Shown here: positions 8,587 to 19,924 of the stretch, one piece after another
How positions within the stretch are numbered: position 1 is the first letter of the stretch
Layout of the letters: each line of letters starts with the position of its first letter
DNA from: Metabacillus litoralis
Lineage (GTDB): Bacteria > Bacillota > Bacilli > Bacillales > Bacillaceae
Assembly: GCF_007994985.1 (NCBI RefSeq)
Contig: NZ_VOQF01000003.1
Span: 186,001 to 250,000, forward strand
DNA: 64,000 nt
Direction: 5' to 3'
Program-made: the position numbers and the translations under genes
Notes under the pieces: generated by a model
Told to the model about the DNA's origin: nothing
Database searches by the model: none
What the model saw: the letters and a program-made list of their open reading frames with translations, nothing else

Positions 8587-8628
8587 AATAGGTGTCATTG
8601 TATAAAGAAAAGATCGCACTAGCATTAG
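8587..8628 (+). repeat. Possible remnant of the longer miniature element core
   Basis: On the plus strand this segment shares a spaced pattern with 18226-18265: TTxTATxAAGAAAAGATxxCACTAG. Both are preceded by an AT-rich TATAA-type stretch. No terminal repeats or target duplication are visible around it, so it would be an old or partial copy. The alignment was by eye over about 30 bases. Confidence 0.4.
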
Positions 8629-8772
8629 TAAGTACTGTTTACTTTTAGTATTAAAGTACAAAGTATTGAAAACAGACAATGTAAAAAGCTAGAATCTAAA
8701 ATAAAATAAGGTACAACACTAGAGCTTGTCATTTCTAACAGAAGTAATATGATACTACCTTTATTAGTTGCT

Positions 8773-8797
8773 GAAAAACCCTGCCTTTTGAGCAGGG
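8773..8797 (-). terminator. Intrinsic terminator downstream of polC
   Basis: On the minus strand CCCTGC (8792-8797) and GCAGGG (8779-8784) form a 6-bp GC-rich stem with a 7-base loop, followed by TTTTTC. It lies about 300 bases past the polC stop and before rimP, so it would end read-through from polC. Confidence 0.65.
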
Positions 8798-9037
8798 AAT
8801 GAGTATGTACAACACTATCCGAAAATGAGGCAATACAATACGAAAGAGCGGGTTTCCCCACTCTTTTTCCTCTGCTTATCGTTAGCATTTCCATTAAAAG
8901 CATAACATAACCATCATTTTTATGCAAATTTATCCTTACCCAGAATAGCAAAGGTGTTAACTCTGAAATGAAACATTTTATTGATTGAGTCAGAAAGCTG
9001 TATACCTAAGGATTCTAATGTTTACAATCATGAAATT

Positions 9038-9107
9038 TAAAATAAGGCTGTTTTCACTCCAAACTTTGTTACCTAGCAACAATCGTTCAGAAAAGAGCCT
9101 AAAATAA
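9038..9107 (-). mobile_element. Short miniature inverted-repeat element (54 bp) with 8-bp target duplication, at the polC stop codon
   Basis: The element occupies 9046-9099. On the minus strand it starts GGCTCTTTTC and ends GAAAACAGCC, a 10-base terminal inverted repeat with one mismatch. It is flanked on both sides by the 8-base direct repeat TTATTTTA (9100-9107 and 9038-9045). The polC stop codon TAG is made of TA from the duplication and the first G of the element. The left 50 bases are about 80% identical to the left end of the element at 18162-18322. It has no coding capacity. Ends starting GGCTCTTT and 8-bp duplications recall the ISL3 family, which could supply the transposase; that is inference. 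Confidence 0.8.
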
Positions 9108-12100
9108 AGACAATTGATTCTGATCTGGTAGTTCATCCAAACAACCATGTGTTGTTAAATATTCAATGATTGTTTTAGACACTCTTCCCCTTTGTTGAAG
9201 ATCTTCTTTTGACAAAAACTCACCATCTTCTCTAGCTTTTACAATATTGATGGCAGCATTTGTCCCTAACCCTGGGATTGAATTGAATGGCGGAATCAAA
9301 CTATTTCCGTCAATTAAAAATTCTGATGCACTTGAACGATAAAGATCAACTTTTTGGAATGAGTACCCTCTTTCGCACATTTCTAGTGCTAATTCAAGAA
9401 CTGTTAAAAGATTTTTCTCTTTTGGAGATGCATCTAGCCCTTTAACATTTATTTCTTCGATTTTAGCTTTTATTGGTGTGGATCCTTTAACCATTGTGTC
9501 GATATCAAAATCATCTGCACGTACGGTAAAATATGCAGAATAATATAGCAAAGCATGATGTACTTTAAAATAAGCAATCCTAACAGCCATTAATACGTAT
9601 GCTGCAGCATGAGCTTTTGGGAACATGTATTTTATTTTTAAGCAAGAGTTGATATACCAATCTGGAACCTCTTGTTTTTTCATCTCTTCTTCCATTTCAT
9701 CTGTTAAACCTTTTCCTTTACGAACAGACTCCATTATTTTAAAAGCAAATGAAGGCTCTAGCCCCTGGTATATAAGGTATACCATAATATCATCTCGACA
9801 ACCAATAACTTCACTTAAGGTACATATATTATTATGGATTAATTCCTGAGCATTTCCCAGCCATACATCTGTTCCATGTGAGAGTCCAGAAATTTGCACT
9901 AGCTCAGAAAATGTTGTTGGCTTCGTATCTTCAAGCATTTGTCGAACAAATCTCGTACCAAATTCAGGAATACCTAATGTTCCAGTTTTACACATAATTT
10001 GTTCTGAAGTGACACCCAATGATTCAGTTCCACTAAAGATTTTCATCACTTCTGGATCATCTGTTGGAATCGTCTTCGGATCTATCCCACTTAAATCTTG
10101 AAGCATACGTATAACTGTTGGATCATCATGCCCAAGTATATCAAGTTTTAGTAAATTATCGTGTATAGAATGGAAATCAAAGTGTGTTGTCTTCCATTCA
10201 GAACCTGTTGCATCAGCTGGAAATTGGATTGGCGAAAAATCAAAGATATCCATATAATCAGGAACAACTATAATTCCACCTGGATGTTGTCCAGTTGTTC
10301 TTTTAACACCAGTGCATCCTTGCACAAGGCGGTCAACTTCTGCACCTCTATGAACAATATTGCGATCATTTGCATAACCCTTTACATATCCATAAGCTGT
10401 TTTTTCAGCAACCGTACCTATCGTTCCTGCACGAAAAACATTATCTTCACCAAAAAGAATTTTTGTATAATTATGAGCTATTGGCTGATATTCACCAGAG
10501 AAGTTCAAATCGATATCAGGTACTTTATCACCTTTAAACCCAAGAAACGTTTCGAAAGGAATATCATGTCCATCTTTTTTATATTGACCACCACAATGTG
10601 GACATTCTTTATTCGGCAAATCAAATCCAGAACCAACTGAACCATCATTAAAAAACTCTGAATGCTGACAATCTGGACAAACATAATGTGGGGGCAATGG
10701 ATTAACCTCTGTTATCTCTGTCATTGTTGCTACAAAAGAAGAACCAACAGATCCACGAGATCCTACTAGATAACCGTCATCTAGCGATTTTTTTACAAGT
10801 TTATGAGAAATCAGATAAATAACAGCAAATCCGTGACCAATAATACTTTTCAACTCTTTTTCTAGTCTAGCCTCAACAAGTTCAGGGAGATTTTCTCCAT
10901 ATATGCTTCTTGCTCTTGAATAACTCATCTCTCTGACTTCTTCATCAGCACCCTCAATTTTTGGAGTGTAAAGATCGTCTTTGATAGGTTTAATTTCATC
11001 GATCATATCTGCTATTTTATTTGTATTATCAACTACAATCTCCTTTGCTTTCTCTTTACCAAGAAATGAAAAACAGTCCAGCATTTCATCGGTTGTTCTA
11101 AAATGAACATCAGGAAGCTCATGTCGATTTAAAGGATTAGCCCCACCTTGAGAGCTTACTAAAATCTTTCGGTAGATTTTATCGACAGGATTTAAATAAT
11201 GAGCATTACCAGTAGCAACTACTGGTTTCTCTAGCTTTTCACCAAGTTTCACAATATTTGAAACGATCTCTTGAAGCGCAACTTCATCTCTAATATAATC
11301 CAAGTCAATTAAATGATTATATACCTCTAGTGGTTGAACCTCTAGATAATCATAAAACGAGGCGATCTCTTCAACTTCCTCTGGAGACTTTTGCATCATA
11401 CCTTCGAACACTTCACCTTTATCACAAGCAGAGCCTACTAAAAGTCCTTCTCGATACTTATTTAACTGTGAACGAGGAATACGAGGAACTCTGTAAAAAT
11501 AGTTTATATGAGAAATAGAAACAAGTTTAAATAAGTTTTTTAAGCCTGTCTCATTTTTTGCTAAAACAATTGCATGATATGGTCGTGAACGTTGATAAGA
11601 ATTTCCTTTTCCCATATTATCATTAAACTGATCGTGATATTCAATTTCCTTTTCAGCAGAATCTTTTAACATCTTAATTAAAAGATAGCCTGTTGCCTCA
11701 GCATCATAAATTGCTCTGTGATGCTGTGTTAATTCAATATCAAATTTCTTACATAATGTGTTTAGACGGTGATTTTTCATTTCTGGGTATAGAAAACGAC
11801 CTAATTCAAGTGTATCAATAACAGGATTTTTAGCTTTTGCTTCTCCTAGAAGCTTTTTGTAACCTACATTTAAAAATCCCATATCAAAACTGGCATTATG
11901 AGCAACTAAAATATCATGACCTATCCAATCCTTGAACTTTCGTAACACCTCATCTACATTTGGTGCTGTTCTTACCATATCATCAGTAATACCTGTCAAC
12001 TCTATAGTGGTTGCTGATAATGGATGATGTGGATTAGCGAAGGATTCAAACCGATCGATAATTTCTCCACCACGAATTTTAACTGCAGCAAGCTCAATTA

Positions 12101-13412
12101 TCGTATCATAAACTGCAGAAAGTCCCGTAGTCTCAACATCAAAAACTATATATGTTTCATCAGGTAGGAACCGATGTTCATCATTATAAGCTATAGGTAC
12201 ACCATCGTTTACAAGATTAATTTCTACACCATATAAAATCTTAACACCATTCTTTTTACCAGCTGAATAAGCTTCAGGAAAGGATTGTGCAACAGCATGA
12301 TCTGTTAAAGCAATCGCTTTATGACCCCATTTTTTTGCTTGCTCTATATACTTGCTAACAGATGTTACAGCATCCATTTGACTCATTGGTGAATGTAAAT
12401 GAAGCTCCACCCTTTTTTCATCTTCTGGTGCCTTATCTTTTCTTTCCCTTGGAGAAATTTCATTAATATCATTTGCGATCATAACCAAATCACGAACAAA
12501 AGTATCATTTTGAATGCTTCCTCTTACCTTTAACCACATTCCCTTTTTAACAGCTTGAACTAATGCAGCATCTTCTTTGTCTCTAGCGAACATCTTTACA
12601 AGTATTGAGCTTGTATAATCAGTAATTTTGAAGGTTAGTAATGTTCTTCCACTACGTAACTCTCTTGTTTCAGCATCAAAAACATACCCTTGGATAGCAA
12701 TTCTTCTTTCTTCATCTTCAATAGAGACAAGAGTCCGAATGTCTTCATCATCTTTAATCGTATATCCAATTGTTAGTGGACCTGAAAGTTCAGGCATGGA
12801 TGATTCTTCTCTTTCCGCATTCTCCATATCTGTTAATGCTTGGAAGCCACGTTCTTTGTCTTCTTGCATCTTTTGTTCTTGGAATTGTTTAACTTCCTCT
12901 TCGCTTACAGCGACAGTTGTTTCCATTTGAAAAGGTGGGAAGCCAAATTGTTGGAAGCTATCTTGAATTAATGAAGCATATTTACGCTTAATTGTCATTG
13001 ATTCTGTATCGTTTCTTGTTTTGATTATAACTTTGATACCTTGAACAGTTGGTTTTTGTTCATTTAACAATGAAAGCATTGGTGGAGAAATGCCATCCAT
13101 TTGCTGAATACAAGTTGACCAATAATCTTGCACTAACTTTTCATCAAATGCTTGGTCTATAGTTTCAAAGGAAAATGTCACATCTGCAATATGAGAAAAA
13201 GCTTTAGTTATTTTTGAATAAAATAACTGATATATATTAAAAGGGAGGATCTTTTCAAATTGAAAATGAAAATGCCATTTTTTAATTTCTTTATGAACAG
13301 TTAATTTTGCAATAGAACCATTTCTAAAGTGAACAACAGCTGCATCTTCAGTTAAATTTATTTGTTGTAGCAATAGTTGAAATCGCTCGATTTGTGTTGT
13401 CTGATTCTCCAT
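9099..13412 (-). CDS. polC: DNA polymerase III alpha subunit, PolC type
   Basis: The 1437-residue protein is the Gram-positive replicative polymerase with built-in proofreading. Visible parts are an N-terminal region, an OB fold (about 230-320), a PHP domain beginning at [10 protein letters not shown] (335-344), and an exonuclease inserted in the PHP domain with DVETTG at 425-430. A zinc site follows (CPDC with a later CPHC), then the palm with [14 protein letters not shown] and a C-terminal helix-hairpin-helix. GAGAGGGGAAAAG precedes the ATG. Its stop codon lies at the junction with a miniature element. The C-terminus LSLF is intact, so the insertion did not alter the protein. Confidence 0.98.
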
Positions 13413-13470
13413 TATCTTTTCCCCTCTCCATGAAGGTAATATCTACTAAAACATATTAGTAATCACAACT

Positions 13471-13533
13471 GAAGAGGCTGCCTCATTTTTATAGACATCA
13501 TACATATGTCCATTCACTCGAGTCAGCCTCTTC
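13471..13533. repeat. Palindromic hairpin element between proS and polC
   Basis: The outer arms are GAAGAGGCTGCCTC on the left and, read inward on the other strand, GAAGAGGCTGACTC on the right: 13 of 14 positions match. An inner GACAT...ATGTC pair adds to the fold. No direct repeat flanks it, and no T tract follows on either strand, so it is not a classical terminator. It may be a dispersed hairpin repeat or an mRNA processing or stability element in the polC leader. Confidence 0.6.
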
Positions 13534-13550
13534 TCGTCTTATATTTATCT

Positions 13551-13579
13551 ATCTTAACATGCTTTTATAGTTACTGTAA
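13551..13579 (-). promoter_or_regulatory. Candidate sigma-A promoter for polC
   Basis: On the minus strand TTACAG (13574-13579) and TAAGAT (13551-13556) are 17 bases apart, about 140 bases upstream of the polC start. Transcription from here would include the palindromic element at 13471-13533 in the leader. Confidence 0.4.
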
Positions 13580-13648
13580 GCTTTTTATAATATCTGAATT
13601 TAAGCGGAACTATTAAATATTATTTTAAGATCCTTCATTCAACTATTA

Positions 13649-15352
13649 TCATAAACCTAAAATTTGTGTTAATTTTTCAGTAAGATCATTAAGATTAACT
13701 TCAAATGATTCTCCTGATTTGCGTAATTTAACCTCTACAATACCTTCATCAGCTTTTTTACCAACGGTTATTCGTACAGGTAATCCAATAAGATCTGAAT
13801 CAGCAAATTTTACACCAACTCGTTCTTGGCGGTCATCTAAAAGTACTTCATAGCCCTTTGTATTAAGCTCATGATATAGGTTTTCAGCAAGTTCTCTTTG
13901 TGAATCATTTTTTACATTAACCGGTATAATGTGAATAGTAAAAGGTGCAATATTTTCAGGCCATACAATACCGTTTTCATCATTATGTTGTTCAATAATC
14001 GCAGCTAATGTTCTAGAAACTCCAATTCCATAACATCCCATAATCATAGGTTGAGCACGACCATTTTCATCCAAAAATGTCGCATTCATAGCTTCACTAT
14101 ATCTAGTTCCTAGCTTAAATACATGACCAACTTCAATCCCCTTTGCAAATTGAATTAACCCTTTACCATCTGGTGATACATCACCCTCTTGAATAAAGCG
14201 AAGATCAGCATATTGAGAGACTTTAGCATCCCTGTCAAGATTAACACCCTTATAATGGTGATTTTCCTCATTAGCACCACAAACACCATTAATAATGACT
14301 GAAACAGCTTGATCTGCTACAACTTCAATTTCATTTGGAATGTTTATTGGTCCTACATAACCAGGCACACAATTTAATACTTCTTTCGTTTCGTCTGCAG
14401 TTGCCAGTTCGACAACAGAAGCACTGAAAAGATTTTTCACTTTTATATCATTTATTTCATGATCACCACGAGCTAATACTAAAACAAATTTCTCATCTAC
14501 TTTAAACAAAATAGACTTTACACAAGTTTCTTTGGAAACATTTAAAAAAGAAGAAATTTCTTCAATTGTACGTTGATTAGGTGTTACAATTTTTTCTAGC
14601 TCATTTTCTGCTACATTGCTTTTCTCATATTCTGCAATAACTGGTGCCATTTCAACATTAGCTGCATATTGTGAGCTATCAGAGTAAGCAATTGTGTCTT
14701 CACCTATTTCTGACAGTACCATAAATTCATGAGTATCAGTTCCACCCATTGCACCTGAATCAGCGATAACAGCTCTAAAATTCAAGCCACAACGTGAAAA
14801 AACATTTTGATACGCTTCAAACATCTTTGTATAACCTTCATCAAGACTTTCGTTCGTTGAGTGAAATGAGTACGCATCCTTCATAATAAATTCACGTCCA
14901 CGTAATACGCCAAAACGTGGTCGTTTTTCATCTCGGAACTTTGTTTGGATTTGATATAATGCAAGTGGTAGCCTCTTATATGACTTCACTTCATCGCGGA
15001 CAAGGCTTGTGATCATTTCTTCATGAGTTGCCCCAAGTGCAAAATCTCGGTTATGGCGATCTTTAAGTCTCATCAATTCAGGACCATAAGAATACCAGCG
15101 TCCCGATTCCTGCCAAAGCTCTGCTTGTTGTAATGCAGGCATTAGTAATTCAGATGCACCTGCTTGATTCATTTCTTCTCGAACAATTTGTTCAATTTTC
15201 TTAAGAACTTTATGAGCTAATGGTAAGTAGCTATAAACACCACTTGTGTTTTGTCTAATAAATCCTGCTCGTAGCATAAGCTGGTGACTTTTGACCTCAG
15301 CATCAGCTGGAATTTCTCTTAGAGTAGGAATAAACATCATACTTTGTTTCAT
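13649..15352 (-). CDS. proS: Prolyl-tRNA synthetase, bacterial type
   Basis: The 567-residue class II synthetase charges tRNA-Pro. It begins [20 protein letters not shown] and shows motif 1 around [17 protein letters not shown], motif 2 with [17 protein letters not shown], an inserted YbaK-type editing domain in the middle, and a C-terminal anticodon-binding domain ending in LTQILGL. The ATG at 15352 follows GATAGAGGTG by 7 bases; the 20 in-frame codons upstream have no family similarity. No T-box leader is visible. Adjacent rasP upstream and polC downstream match the B. subtilis order. Confidence 0.97.
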
Positions 15353-15451
15353 AACGAGCACCTCTATCTTATCAAACTTCTTGAAAATCTCCGGAAACCC
15401 TCTAGATCTCACGGAAACAAATTTACTGCAATAATTCTAATGTACCTGTTT

Positions 15452-15479
15452 AATATATAGTTATATTTTAATCATACAA
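15452..15479 (-). promoter_or_regulatory. Candidate sigma-A promoter for proS
   Basis: On the minus strand TTGTAT (15474-15479) is followed after 16 bases by TATATT (15452-15457), about 100 bases upstream of proS. An overlapping alternative pairs TTATTG and TATATA with 17 bases. Confidence 0.4.
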
Positions 15480-15531
15480 TAATAAACTGCTTTTCACAGA
15501 TCAATTTAGTTTAAGTAATCAGTATTTAATT

Positions 15532-16791
15532 TTATAAAAATAATCGTTGAATATCATTCCAAGTAACTACAAGCATTAATAGCATAAGTAAAGAAAATCC
15601 AATAAAATGAACGATACCTTCTTTTTGTCGATCAATAGGCTTTCCTCTTAATGCTTCTACAAATAAGAAGAGTAGTCGTCCACCATCTAAAGCAGGGATA
15701 GGTAACAAATTGACAATACCTAAATTAATACTTAGAAGAGCAGCCCATCTTAGTAAATTAGTTGTACCAGATTCTGCTACTTGATCTGTCATATCGTATA
15801 TCCCAACTGGACCTGAAAGCATATCAATCGAAAACTGCCCAGTGACTAATTTTCCAAACCCTATTAAAATCTCTTTAGTCCAAGTGTATGTTTCAACGAA
15901 ACCATACTTAAGTGAGCTTACAAAGGATTTATCAACTGGATTATACGCCCCAATTCTACCAATCGTTTCTTCACCAACTTTAGCAGCATCAGGTACTACT
16001 TCATAACTTAAAATATCTCCTTGACGCTCTACCTCAAATGTTAATTCGGTTTCTGGATTTTGCTGAATAATTTTAACGACTTCTGCCCATGAAGATGTTG
16101 ATTCTCCTTCAATGGAATGAATAACATCTCCTTCTTGTAACCCTGATTCTTTTGCAGATCCATCATCAGTTAACTGTCCTAATTTTGGGTCATCAACAGG
16201 AGCACCTTGAAGAAGTCCTAATGAAAAAAGAATGACAAAAGCTAATAAAAAGTTCATTGCTGGCCCAGCAAATATCGCTGCAATTCTTTGTCTTACCGTT
16301 TTAGACTGAAATTGACGATTGTATGGTGCAATTTGTATTTCCTGACCATCTACAATAAAGTAAGAGGTTTCACTAACATCAAAACGCTTTATAAATTCTT
16401 CTTCACCGTGTTCGTAACCTGAAATGAACATGTTATGTTCCAAATCAACATTTTCTACTTCAATTACACGAGCATTAGGATACTTTTCTTTATTGTTCAA
16501 GATAATCTTTTCCACTTGATTTTCTTTGTTAAAAAGTAAGCCAACGTTATGACCAGGCTTAACTTCAATTACTTCGGGATCCTCACCTGCCATTCGAACA
16601 AAACCACCTATAGGTAGTAAGCGAATGGTATAAATTGTTTCATTTTTTTTAAATGACAATATTTTGGGACCGAAACCAATAGCAAATTCCCGACAAAGTA
16701 TTCCTGCACGATTTGCAAATATTAAATGCCCTAATTCATGAAAAAATACAAGAGCACCAAAAATAAGAACAAAAGCTATCACTGTATTCAT
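15532..16791 (-). CDS. rasP: Site-2 intramembrane zinc metalloprotease (RasP/RseP family)
   Basis: The 419-residue membrane protein cleaves anti-sigma factors and other membrane proteins within the bilayer. The zinc motif HELGH is at residues 18-22 in the first membrane helix. A PDZ domain follows the second helix (KESGLQEGDVIHSIEGESTS). The second catalytic motif NLLPIPALDGGRLLF lies near the C-terminus. An extracytoplasmic insertion separates the first helix from the PDZ. In B. subtilis RasP processes RsiW and FtsL. The ATG follows AAGGGTGG by about 10 bases, and the gene lies 15 bases after dxr. Confidence 0.96.
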   Translation of the reverse strand: MNTVIAFVLIFGALVFFHELGHLIFANRAGILCREFAIGFGPKILSFKKNETIYTIRLLPIGGFVRMAGEDPEVIEVKPGHNVGLLFNKENQVEKIILNNKEKYPNARVIEVENVDLEHNMFISGYEHGEEEFIKRFDVSETSYFIVDGQEIQIAPYNRQFQSKTVRQRIAAIFAGPAMNFLLAFVILFSLGLLQGAPVDDPKLGQLTDDGSAKESGLQEGDVIHSIEGESTSSWAEVVKIIQQNPETELTFEVERQGDILSYEVVPDAAKVGEETIGRIGAYNPVDKSFVSSLKYGFVETYTWTKEILIGFGKLVTGQFSIDMLSGPVGIYDMTDQVAESGTTNLLRWAALLSINLGIVNLLPIPALDGGRLLFLFVEALRGKPIDRQKEGIVHFIGFSLLMLLMLVVTWNDIQRLFL

Positions 16792-16806
16792 ACTGTATGA
16801 CCACCC

Positions 16807-17958
16807 TTATGAGATTAATGTTTGTACAAAATTTCTTGTTAGTTGATCAACTTCTTGAATCTGCTCTAAACCTGGATGTGCGATGCTCTCATGCTTATCC
16901 ATTGCTCTTTCAATACATTCCTCTATTTGGAGAAACTTAATTTTACCCTTCAAAAAACTAGCGACAGCTTCTTCATTTGCTGCGTTCAAAACTGTAGGCA
17001 TTGTTCCACCTATTTTACCTGAATCATATGCAAATTGTAAGCATTTATATCTGTTAAAATCAGCTTTTTCAAAATGAAGCTTTCCAAATTCCCATAATTC
17101 AAGTCTCTTAGATTTTTCTAAAGGCAGTCTATCAGGGTATGTTAAAGCATATTGAATGGGCCCTCTCATATCTGGTGTACCTAATTGTGCTTTTATACTA
17201 CGATCTTGAAACTCTACCAAAGAGTGAATAATGCTTTCTTTATGTAGTAATACATCAATTTTTTCATAAGGAATATTAAATAACCAATGTGCTTCAATAA
17301 CTTCTAAGCCTTTATTCATCATTGTAGCTGAATCAATGGTAATCTTAGCACCCATAGACCAGTTTGGATGATTGAGTGCTTGCTCTACCGTTACTTCATG
17401 TAGTTCTTCTCTTTTCTTATCACGGAAACTACCGCCTGAGGCTGTAACAATTAACCGATCAATTGTTTTTTCATTTTCTCCTTGAAGACATTGAAATATA
17501 GCAGAGTGTTCACTATCAACGGGTAATAACTTCACATTATACTTTGCAGCATGCTCCGTCACTAAATGTCCCGCTGTAACAAGAGTCTCTTTGTTTGCTA
17601 TAGCAATAGTGATGTTATTCTCAATGGCTCTTAATGTTGGAACTAACCCGACACTTCCCACTACTGCATTAACTAGACAATCTACTCTATCATAAACTGC
17701 TGCTTCTATAAGAGCATTATCCCCATATCCAAATTTAATGTCGTTACTTGAAAATTCAAATTTAAGCTTTTCATATGTTTCTTTGTCTTTTACAGCTACA
17801 AATGCAGGTTTAAATTTAGAGATAATATCTACACCTGTTTTAATGTTACTTCCAAAAGACATTGCCAGAAGTTTAAAATGTTCAGGATGTGATTCAATGA
17901 CATCCAAGGTTTGGATACCTATCGAACCTGTCGCACCTAATAAGCTAATTTTTTTCAC
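16807..17958 (-). CDS. dxr: 1-deoxy-D-xylulose 5-phosphate reductoisomerase
   Basis: The enzyme makes 2-C-methyl-D-erythritol 4-phosphate, the first committed step of the non-mevalonate isoprenoid pathway. From a GTG at 17958 the product is 383 residues, the same as in B. subtilis. It has the NADPH motif LLGATGSIG at about 6-14, [22 protein letters not shown] and the [21 protein letters not shown] block. GGAAGTG ends 5 bases before the GTG, whereas the in-frame TTG at 17976 has no site. Neighbours uppS and cdsA use isoprenoid and lipid precursors, so the cluster is functionally coherent. Confidence 0.96.
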
Positions 17959-18323
17959 AAGTTCACTTCCAATCAATAAGAATGCGTAAGATACGCGTCC
18001 ATTTTAACATTAGGAACTGTTAAGATTTCTGTTACAAGCAGTTCCTATTGAAATAAATAACACATTTAAAAATAATTCTGCTTTGAACACTACTCAAACT
18101 ATATATTCCAAATATCCCAACGTCCGAAATCTTGAAATATAAGCTTCTAAACAATTAGTTAGGCTCTTTTCTGAACGATTGTTACTATATAACCAAAATT
18201 TGGAGTGAAAACAGTGTTTTCCACTATAAAAATACCATTTTATGAAGAAAAGATGCCACTAGACGTAATGCAGAGCTGATTGCTTCGAGTATTTAAAAGC
18301 AACAAAGTTTGCGAAAACAGCCA
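17959..18323. other. Intergenic region cdsA-dxr (365 bases)
   Basis: No gene is visible. The half next to cdsA is the 161-bp miniature element (18162-18322) with its target duplications. The remaining 200 bases hold a 9-bp inverted repeat TAGGAACTG/CAGTTCCTA (18011-18047) with no T tract. Two weak minus-strand sigma-A-like pairs are present: TTCGGA, 17, TATATA and TTGAGT, 17, TATTTT. One of these may drive dxr, which the insertion may have separated from cdsA transcription. Confidence 0.65.
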
Positions 18324-18330
18324 TTAGTTA
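18154..18330 (+). mobile_element. Longer miniature inverted-repeat element (161 bp) with 8-bp target duplication, at the cdsA stop codon
   Basis: The element is 18162-18322, starting GGCTCTTTTCTGAACG and ending GCGAAAACAGCC on the plus strand. The ends form an imperfect inverted repeat, with 9 of the first 10 positions matching and further matches to about base 30. The perfect 8-base direct repeat ATTAGTTA flanks it at 18154-18161 and 18323-18330. On the minus strand this duplication reads TAACTAAT and contains the cdsA stop codon. There is no coding capacity. It shares its left 50 bases with the 54-bp element at 9046-9099. GGCTCTTT-type ends and 8-bp duplications suggest mobilisation by an ISL3-family transposase (inference). 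Confidence 0.82.
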
Positions 18331-19127
18331 AAAAGGATCAACATAAAATGTAAAAGCGGCAAAACAAATAGCAAACTATCGAATCGATCTAAAATACCGC
18401 CATGACCGGGTAAGATTGTTCCAGAATCTTTCACATGATAATGTCTTTTTAAAGCAGATTCAACAAGATCACCGATTTGTCCAAAGACCGAAAGTAAAGT
18501 TGTCATAACAATAACCACAAATAAATTATCTAAAATACCTGTAAAATAGTGATAGATACAAGCAAATATTACTGCAAATAAAACACCACCAACAGCACCT
18601 TCAATTGTTTTATTGGGACTTATTTCAGGCCACAGTTTATTTTTACCCATTGCACGTCCTATAAAATATGCTCCAGAATCAGTCACCCATATCAATAATA
18701 ATGCATAAAAGACCAGCTCTAGACCACCTTGTAACTCAGAATTTCTAGTTTCAATAAGAAAATAAAAACCTATGCCTAAATAAAAAATTGCAATAACAAC
18801 GAAACCTACATCATCGAACGTAAATTTATTTTTCGTTACGACAGTATAAGTTAATAATAAAAGTAAAGCTAATAATGCAAACTCAGATTTAGAAAAACCT
18901 TCTAATAATACTGTTATATAAGTATTTGGTATTAATAGAACCCATAATATTAATAAACTGACTAGCCCTGGGAAACTAAATAAAGATATTTTTTTCATTT
19001 TTAACAATTCATGTAACGCAATTGATGCTAGCAGGTAAACAAATATAGTAAATGGAAGCTTTCCATAAATAACAAATGGAAGAAAAAGAGCTGCAGCTAA
19101 TATTGCGGTTAAAATTCGTTGTTTCAT
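18324..19127 (-). CDS. cdsA: Phosphatidate cytidylyltransferase (CDP-diacylglycerol synthase)
   Basis: The 267-residue integral membrane enzyme converts phosphatidate and CTP to CDP-diacylglycerol, the precursor of all phospholipids here. It is almost wholly hydrophobic, with about eight membrane segments, and carries the family signature SPNKTIEGAVGG followed by KDSGTILPGHGGILDRFDSLLF near the C-terminus. The ATG at 19127 follows AAAGGTG by 10 bases; the longer frame upstream overlaps uppS and is rejected. It lies 17 bases after uppS. The stop codon sits in the target duplication of a miniature element, and the length is normal. Confidence 0.96.
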   Translation of the reverse strand: MKQRILTAILAAALFLPFVIYGKLPFTIFVYLLASIALHELLKMKKISLFSFPGLVSLLILWVLLIPNTYITVLLEGFSKSEFALLALLLLLTYTVVTKNKFTFDDVGFVVIAIFYLGIGFYFLIETRNSELQGGLELVFYALLLIWVTDSGAYFIGRAMGKNKLWPEISPNKTIEGAVGGVLFAVIFACIYHYFTGILDNLFVVIVMTTLLSVFGQIGDLVESALKRHYHVKDSGTILPGHGGILDRFDSLLFVLPLLHFMLILFN

Positions 19128-19144
19128 TTTTAGTTCATCACCTT

Positions 19145-19924
19145 TTAAATACCACCAAATCTTCTTCCGCGTTGTTGGTATGTATATATTGCTTGTAAAA
19201 GACATTGTTCATTAAAGTCCGGCCATAGTACTTCTGTAAACCAAAACTCAGTATAAGCAAGCTGCCAAAGCATAAAGTTACTCAATCTGATTTCTCCACT
19301 TGTGCGAATTAATAAATCAGGATCAACCAATGATCGTGTCATTAAATATGATGATAAAACATCTTCATCAATGGCTTTGCTTTCTAAATTCCCCTCTGCT
19401 ACATCTTTTGAAATGTTTTGAACAGCAGTAATTATTTCTGCACGGCTACCGTAATTTAATGCAAAGTTTAATACAAGTCCATTATTATGTTCTGTTTCTT
19501 TGATTGCCTTTTCTACAGCATTAAATGTATGCTTCGGGAGTTTACTTTTGTCTCCCATTATTCTAACCTGTACATTTTCCTCAATTAATTCAGGTAAGTA
19601 GGTATTCAAAAACTCTTCAGGAAGCTTCATCAGATAATCGACTTCCGTTTTTGGTCTTTTCCAATTTTCTGTGGAAAAGGCATATAGCGTAAGCACTTCA
19701 ACACCAAGCTCATTCGATTGTTTAGTAATTTTGCGGACTACCTTCATACCTTCATGATGACCTGCAATTCGTGGAAGTGCACGTTTCTTTGCCCATCTCC
19801 CATTACCATCCATGATGATAGCAATATGATTTGGTATGTCACCCTTTATTATTTCCTCTTTACTGAATGTTTGTTTGTCAAAAGGCTGAGGAGATCCCTT
19901 TAACTTTTTAAGTAGTTTGAGCAT
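19145..19924 (-). CDS. uppS: Isoprenyl transferase (undecaprenyl diphosphate synthase)
   Basis: The 259-residue cytoplasmic cis-prenyltransferase makes the C55 carrier lipid for cell-wall synthesis. It shows HIAIIMDGNGRWAKKR with the catalytic aspartate at residue 39, LTLYAFSTENW, and LIRTSGEIRLSNFMLWQ followed by EFWFTEVLWPDF. The ATG follows GGAGGAATCAC. It begins a uppS-cdsA unit with a promoter candidate just upstream, placed after the frr terminator. Confidence 0.97.
   Translation of the reverse strand: MLKLLKKLKGSPQPFDKQTFSKEEIIKGDIPNHIAIIMDGNGRWAKKRALPRIAGHHEGMKVVRKITKQSNELGVEVLTLYAFSTENWKRPKTEVDYLMKLPEEFLNTYLPELIEENVQVRIMGDKSKLPKHTFNAVEKAIKETEHNNGLVLNFALNYGSRAEIITAVQNISKDVAEGNLESKAIDEDVLSSYLMTRSLVDPDLLIRTSGEIRLSNFMLWQLAYTEFWFTEVLWPDFNEQCLLQAIYTYQQRGRRFGGI

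Follow-up and report, generated by a model that had tools for sequence, protein, structure and literature searches.

The IS1595 family of insertion sequences, an ISfinder family with the transposase domain DDE_Tnp_IS1595, is characterized by 8-bp target site duplications (TSDs) and an N-terminal zinc finger (PMC8101967). The MITE analyzed here resembles this family in its 8-bp AT-rich duplications, its terminal GG and an end sequence common to both over up to 24 bp, but it carries no transposase and its interior has no detectable similarity to seven IS1595 elements. GG ends and 8-bp AT-rich duplications are likewise found in the ISL3 family; however, no ISL3 transposase was found in the genome under study, and the subterminal sequence differs wherever the ends of ISL3 elements could be set. 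The bcr1-bcr18 repeats of the Bacillus cereus group are, like this MITE, short high-copy repeats of Bacillaceae; bcr mobility is tied to TTTAT motifs (PMC6542083), whereas the MITE has variable 8-bp duplications, a distinction drawn from the description of the bcr repeats. The MITE is an ordinary kind of element and belongs to a widespread family, for which a literature search of partial scope, at the level of titles and abstract openings, yielded no published description.

The window, i.e. the whole 64,000-nt stretch of DNA that was analyzed, is part of a 4.88-Mb draft assembly of Metabacillus litoralis in 75 contigs and contains two copies of the MITE, one of 54 bp at polC and one of 161 bp at cdsA (Table 1); both genes are essential. 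GGCTSTTTTC occurs five times in the window, compared with 0.21 expected occurrences, and four of the five are the ends of the two copies, between which there is an inverted match of 38 nt (89%). Each copy is flanked by a perfect 8-bp duplication, TAAAATAA for the 54-bp copy and ATTAGTTA for the 161-bp copy. The polC stop is split by the insertion, with TA from the duplication and G from the element forming TAG, and the cdsA TAA is intact inside the duplication. The original prediction, namely that one miniature-element family is present twice, with GGCTSTTTTC ends and an 8-bp duplication on both copies, at stop codons and in opposite orientation relative to the genes, is borne out by the ends, the flanks and the Pfam-confirmed polC and cdsA loci.

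Table 1 Features of the two MITE copies and the adjacent genes in the window.
Feature	Position	Strand	Basis or remark
Target duplication TAAAATAA, outer copy	9038..9045		Flank comparison
54-bp MITE copy, internally deleted	9046..9099	-	Ends and TSD; left end GGCTCTTTTCTGAA faces polC
Target duplication TAAAATAA, polC side	9100..9107		9100-9101 and element base 9099 form the polC stop TAG
polC, DNA polymerase III alpha subunit	9099..13412	-	Pfam
Target duplication ATTAGTTA, outer copy	18154..18161		Flank comparison
161-bp MITE copy, full-length, A type	18162..18322	+	Ends and TSD; site empty in G011
Conserved internal motif GAAGAAAAGATGCCACTAGA	18244..18263	+	Contains GAAAAGATGCC, which is similar to an inverted end
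Target duplication ATTAGTTA, cdsA side	18323..18330		Contains the cdsA TAA stop, 18324-18326, minus strand
cdsA, phosphatidate cytidylyltransferase	18324..19205	-	Pfam PF01148

At the cdsA locus of the closest relative, G011, there is one TAACTAAT and no element, and this empty site with a single TAACTAAT is indicative of past mobility. The simplest reading is that the cdsA insertion occurred in the M. litoralis lineage once it had separated from the nearest sequenced species; precise loss of the element in G011 is possible. Among the other 19 cdsA loci, one, in G018, shows a match to the left end, in a different place. In that genome (L385), a left end of the element (20/24) is located about 94 nt downstream of the cdsA stop and represents a separate insertion. 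At polC, G011 carries a longer element in the same place and orientation, with TAA where M. litoralis has TAG, and the 18 other genomes of the genus (G009 left out) show no match to the element ends in the 400 nt that follow polC. The polC stop in the reconstructed empty site is TAA, which would have become TAG upon insertion, with the third base supplied by the element. The 54-bp copy retains the left end, and its junction lies at GAAAACAG, a repeat that full copies carry in their interior and again at their right end; the copy therefore probably arose by deletion in place from the longer polC insertion, which is shared with G011. That the 54-bp copy is a separate mobile unit was rejected, given that it is single in the genome, being the sole match to the short-element pattern, and that a longer version occupies the same site in G011.

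PolC ends in NQLSLF in all 20 genomes of the genus that were read out of 21 (G009, locus L370, was left out), and the C-terminus of CdsA is the same as in G011, with its empty site. The proposal that the element rewrites gene 3' ends was thus overstated, as the ends of both proteins are unchanged. In G006 (L371, L372), the match to the C-terminal part of polC is split into two overlapping pieces, one of which has two TAA codons read through, which may reflect an assembly error or a real break.

The family is abundant in the M. litoralis genome. A BLAST search with the 161-bp copy yielded at least 41 matches (the best 40 of 214 candidates were scored), with one copy elsewhere in the genome being 96% identical; a strict end pattern yielded 35 copies of 146-176 bp; and a profile built from 38 copies yielded at least 150 (the best 150 of 6536 candidates all match, the weakest with E = 9 × 10−9). 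Two main types, A and B, were distinguished. Given at least 150 copies in 4.88 Mb, i.e. a mean spacing of about 32 kb, two copies within 10 kb are unremarkable. Of 151 places in this genome, 83 pass the filter for ends and TSD, and 43 of the 83 have a perfect TSD (compared with 0.9% for random pairing of flanks), a count that is raised by setting the boundaries partly by flank match; 8-bp duplications, as anticipated, are therefore present at other copies.

When 100 genomes were searched with the profile, with at most 29 candidates scored per genome, a MITE match was found in 34, M. litoralis included, and these genomes include other families of the order. A right-end scan of named genomes identified at least 119 stretches, with Metabacillus, Fictibacillus, Peribacillus, Niallia, Cytobacillus, Alkalihalobacillus and others among the matches listed. 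The named genera contributed 123 right-end occurrences among the matches listed, 83 of which were delimited with no more than two mismatches in the duplication, and 57 of the 83 have a perfect one, under a choice of partner end that, as in M. litoralis, favored matching flanks. Related species and related copies are non-independent events. Plasmids and phages gave no match to the 161-bp query, end-only queries matched 9 and 18 plasmid records, and three scans of viral contigs gave 0 matches.

The 161-bp element is non-coding, being too short for a 337-aa transposase. Both copies very likely belong to one high-copy MITE family that, to judge from its GGCTSTTTTC ends and 8-bp duplications, would be mobilized in trans by IS1595-family transposases. 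The anatomy and the shared ends suggest that a transposase made elsewhere, putatively an IS1595 transposase with GGCTGTTTTC ends, would bind the ends of the 161-bp MITE and insert it into TTAWWWAA-like sites, with duplication of 8 bp. Seven IS1595-family elements with MITE or near-MITE ends and perfect 8-bp TSDs were identified, six of them from five relatives and the seventh from Perspicuibacillus. The latter (L219, in Perspicuibacillus lycopersici) is a 1920-bp element with the ends of the MITE and the perfect duplication TTTTAGAA, and carries a HAD-type hydrolase gene along with the transposase, whose bit scores are 203 against NF033547 (cut-off 75) and 58.7 against PF12762 (cut-off 27). 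The passenger hydrolase gene (L219:3649-4314) resembles the phosphatase half of PRK06698, with 431 bits, below the cut-off of 768.

PF12762 was detected in 28 of the 100 genomes, in 26 of them above the cut-off, and is present in 15 of the 34 genomes with MITE matches vs 13 of the 66 without (Fisher's p = 0.018). Among 30 PF12762 loci examined, six (L322, L323, L326, L328, L338 and L350) have a MITE-type end pair and a perfect 8-bp TSD; the right end of L328 is identical to the MITE consensus at 24 of 24 positions, and L338 has the one-base end variant GGCTGTGTTC. Four further loci have another end type, GGCTCTGTTAA or similar, and for the remaining 20, the end scan did not recover both ends together with a perfect duplication. 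In the tree of 27 transposases, a modestly supported branch (76/100, not starred) has all 12 rows with MITE-type ends on one side, and another (99/98) groups the six rows with GGCTCTGTTAA-like ends; L346, with one weak end, sits among the GGCTCTGTTAA-type rows and was counted in neither group, and L327, L335 and L339 have no resolved position.

The original prediction named ISL3-type transposases as acting in trans, and the ISL3 elements of the relatives, with GG ends, GGCTC or GGTTC starts and 8-bp AT-rich duplications, are consistent with mobilization of the MITE by this family. However, PF01610 has 0 matches in the M. litoralis genome (4 of 14 control genomes are positive), is absent from 9 of 12 MITE-rich genomes chosen by eye (G008 and G024, with weaker matches and no PF01610, were left out), being present in G014, G089 and G090, and shows no association with the MITE (6 of 34 genomes with matches vs 17 of 66 without, p = 0.46). 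The best match to the MITE end in 30 ISL3 loci was 19/24, and none was paired; ISL3 ends were set in 4 of the 19 loci tried and proved to be GGTTCTATAATAAATG (twice), GGCTCTACAATATTTG and GGCTCAATGTCATAATC, the scan having found none in the other 15. It is the IS1595 elements that share the ends of the MITE. With no ISL3 transposase gene with matching ends found in the M. litoralis genome or at the 30 ISL3 loci, the ISL3 mobilizer was rejected, and we regard it as extremely improbable. An ISL3-family element of 1382 bp with the ends GGTTCTATAATAAATGTTGGGG was observed in G014 (L080, L101), where the 8-bp duplications are gttttttt and, with one mismatch, aattttaa.

As for IS1595, the preferred mobilizer, no intact element with MITE ends was found in the M. 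litoralis draft assembly, which contains broken remnants only. L335 in this genome is a broken IS1595 copy of another lineage; the left end of its close relative L327, in G003, is similar to GGCTATGTTAA. L415 is a cognate-like C-terminal fragment with 55% identity to L219. Other MITE-rich genomes contain decayed elements in which the ends match and the TSD is perfect, namely L416 in G003 (atctttaa) and L418 in G097 (tttatttt). MITE and transposase correspond only loosely across genomes: PF12762 is missing in 7 of the 12 MITE-rich genomes compared, the L219 protein has no match in 5 of the 12 (G011, G069, G086, G087 and G090), and all matches to it of at least 55% identity in these genomes are fragments. 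Conversely, among genomes with a cognate IS1595, G001, G029, G032, G037 and G064 have no match to the 161-bp profile, and G016 and G022 have one each. The 161-bp interior shows no detectable similarity to the seven IS1595 elements; therefore, an origin by simple internal deletion of a known IS finds no support. These observations connect a repeat that is abundant in many Bacillaceae genera with the family that probably mobilizes it, and supply a target consensus. Judging by the cdsA insertion, the MITE appears to have moved since the last species split; in an assembly without an intact cognate transposase, this represents a case of a stranded MITE.

The target resembles TTAWWWAA and contains TAA on both strands; its composition in 43 copies with a perfect TSD is T 0.86, T 0.84, A 0.58, A 0.58, T 0.56, T/A, A 0.81 and A 0.98. 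Distances to stops in M. litoralis were measured on reconstructed empty sites, with motif-matched intergenic sites as controls; ORF calls were simple (at least 80 aa), and the control set may include intergenic sites where insertion is selected against. On these reconstructed sites, 140 of 151 insertions are intergenic; the 11 that lie inside an ORF were omitted, 7 of them being located no more than 57 nt from the 3' end of the ORF. The anticipated enrichment near stops was observed: 30 of the 140 insertions (21%) are within 10 nt of a stop vs the motif-matched expectation of 11.1% (p = 3 × 10−4), including 20 that overlap the stop (8.0% expected, p = 0.008). Further away, there are 21 insertions at 11-50 nt (10.0% expected) and 19 at 51-100 nt (8.7% expected), such that the excess over motif-matched sites is 1.5- to 1.9-fold throughout and about 1.9-fold within 10 nt. 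Stricter subsets gave 18 of 79 within 10 nt (p = 0.002) and, for perfect TSDs, 10 of 42 (p = 0.015). A count on occupied sites (39 of 151 within 10 nt) was rejected as inflated because, where the insertion is within a gene, a new stop arises at the element itself. TAA accounts for 18 of the 20 overlapped stops, vs 54 of 77 for genes further away and 28 of 52 for the long ORFs of the window, a difference that is suggestive only.

For the independent set from the named genera, 77 of the 83 delimited copies lie at a sufficient distance from the locus ends, and 73 of these are intergenic. Of the 73, 16 are within 10 nt of a stop vs 12.4% expected (p = 0.016). Taken together with the excess in M. 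litoralis, this could mean that the transposition complex truly targets stop codons or transcript 3' ends, beyond motif and selection. However, overlap with the stop in the independent set is 9 of 73 vs 8.8% expected (p = 0.19), whereas the 11-50 nt bin (17 of 73 vs 11.2%) and the 51-100 nt bin (16 of 73 vs 9.4%) are enriched 2.1- and 2.3-fold, respectively; the excess thus extends over 100 nt downstream of genes, with no maximum at the stop itself, and we consider such targeting quite unlikely. The excess is best explained by motif plus tolerance: the target includes TAA/TTA, and an insertion downstream of a gene is probably well tolerated, hence the many surviving copies at or just after stops. 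Hence, of the two explanations originally offered, selection that spares harmless 3'-end insertions can account for the observed bias, and a preference for AT-rich sites holds insofar as the AT-rich motif can contain a stop; a stop-codon target as such is not supported, given the broad enrichment in the independent set. The idea of a stop-codon-rewriting element gives way to motif plus tolerance.

Retention of the copies for a selected function, as 3'-UTR hairpins or terminators, would be in line with their location at gene 3' ends and with the possible pairing between the end repeats. For the 161-bp copy, folding of the minus strand is moderately stronger than in shuffled sequences (z = −2.45, only 1 of 200 shuffles folding as well); for the plus strand, z = −1.42, with 20 of 200 shuffles as good. 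Nevertheless, among the 10 pairs of the RNAalifold consensus of 38 copies, none is changed on both sides, so that the description of the family as mobile hairpins is not supported. Moreover, there is no Rfam match up to E = 1 in positions 8600-18600, no terminator-like site was called inside either copy, and an element end is present within 400 nt after polC in 2 of the 20 genomes of the genus read and after cdsA in 2 of 21 (M. litoralis and, at another place, G018). Retention for such a function appears very improbable, and a conserved RNA hairpin, an Rfam family and a terminator role were rejected on the grounds of no covariation, no Rfam match and no terminator call.

Within the 161-bp element, the 20-bp motif GAAGAAAAGATGCCACTAGA (alignment columns 93-112) is nearly invariant in 38 copies and nearly as conserved as the ends. 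It recurs in related elements of two other families, at 17/20 in elements of G083 and G062 (shuffle maxima 15 and 13). Beyond the closest species, most of the other relatives tested have it in a weaker form or lack it. Conceivably, although this is unlikely, the 161-bp element is a three-site transposon, with GAAGAAAAGATGCCACTAGA as a candidate third transposase-binding site that regulates transposition or allows divergent IS1595 enzymes to act; if true, this would explain the high copy number in genomes without an intact cognate IS.

In other genera, a G+C-rich inverted-repeat insert is often found between the same ends (L111, L115, L129, L185 and others; 205-250 bp), and the hallmark strings of this insert are present in 39 of the 51 elements of 205-250 bp (among 93 delimited). 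Larger forms of 454, 465 and 674 bp (L128, L127 and L176, respectively) were observed as well.
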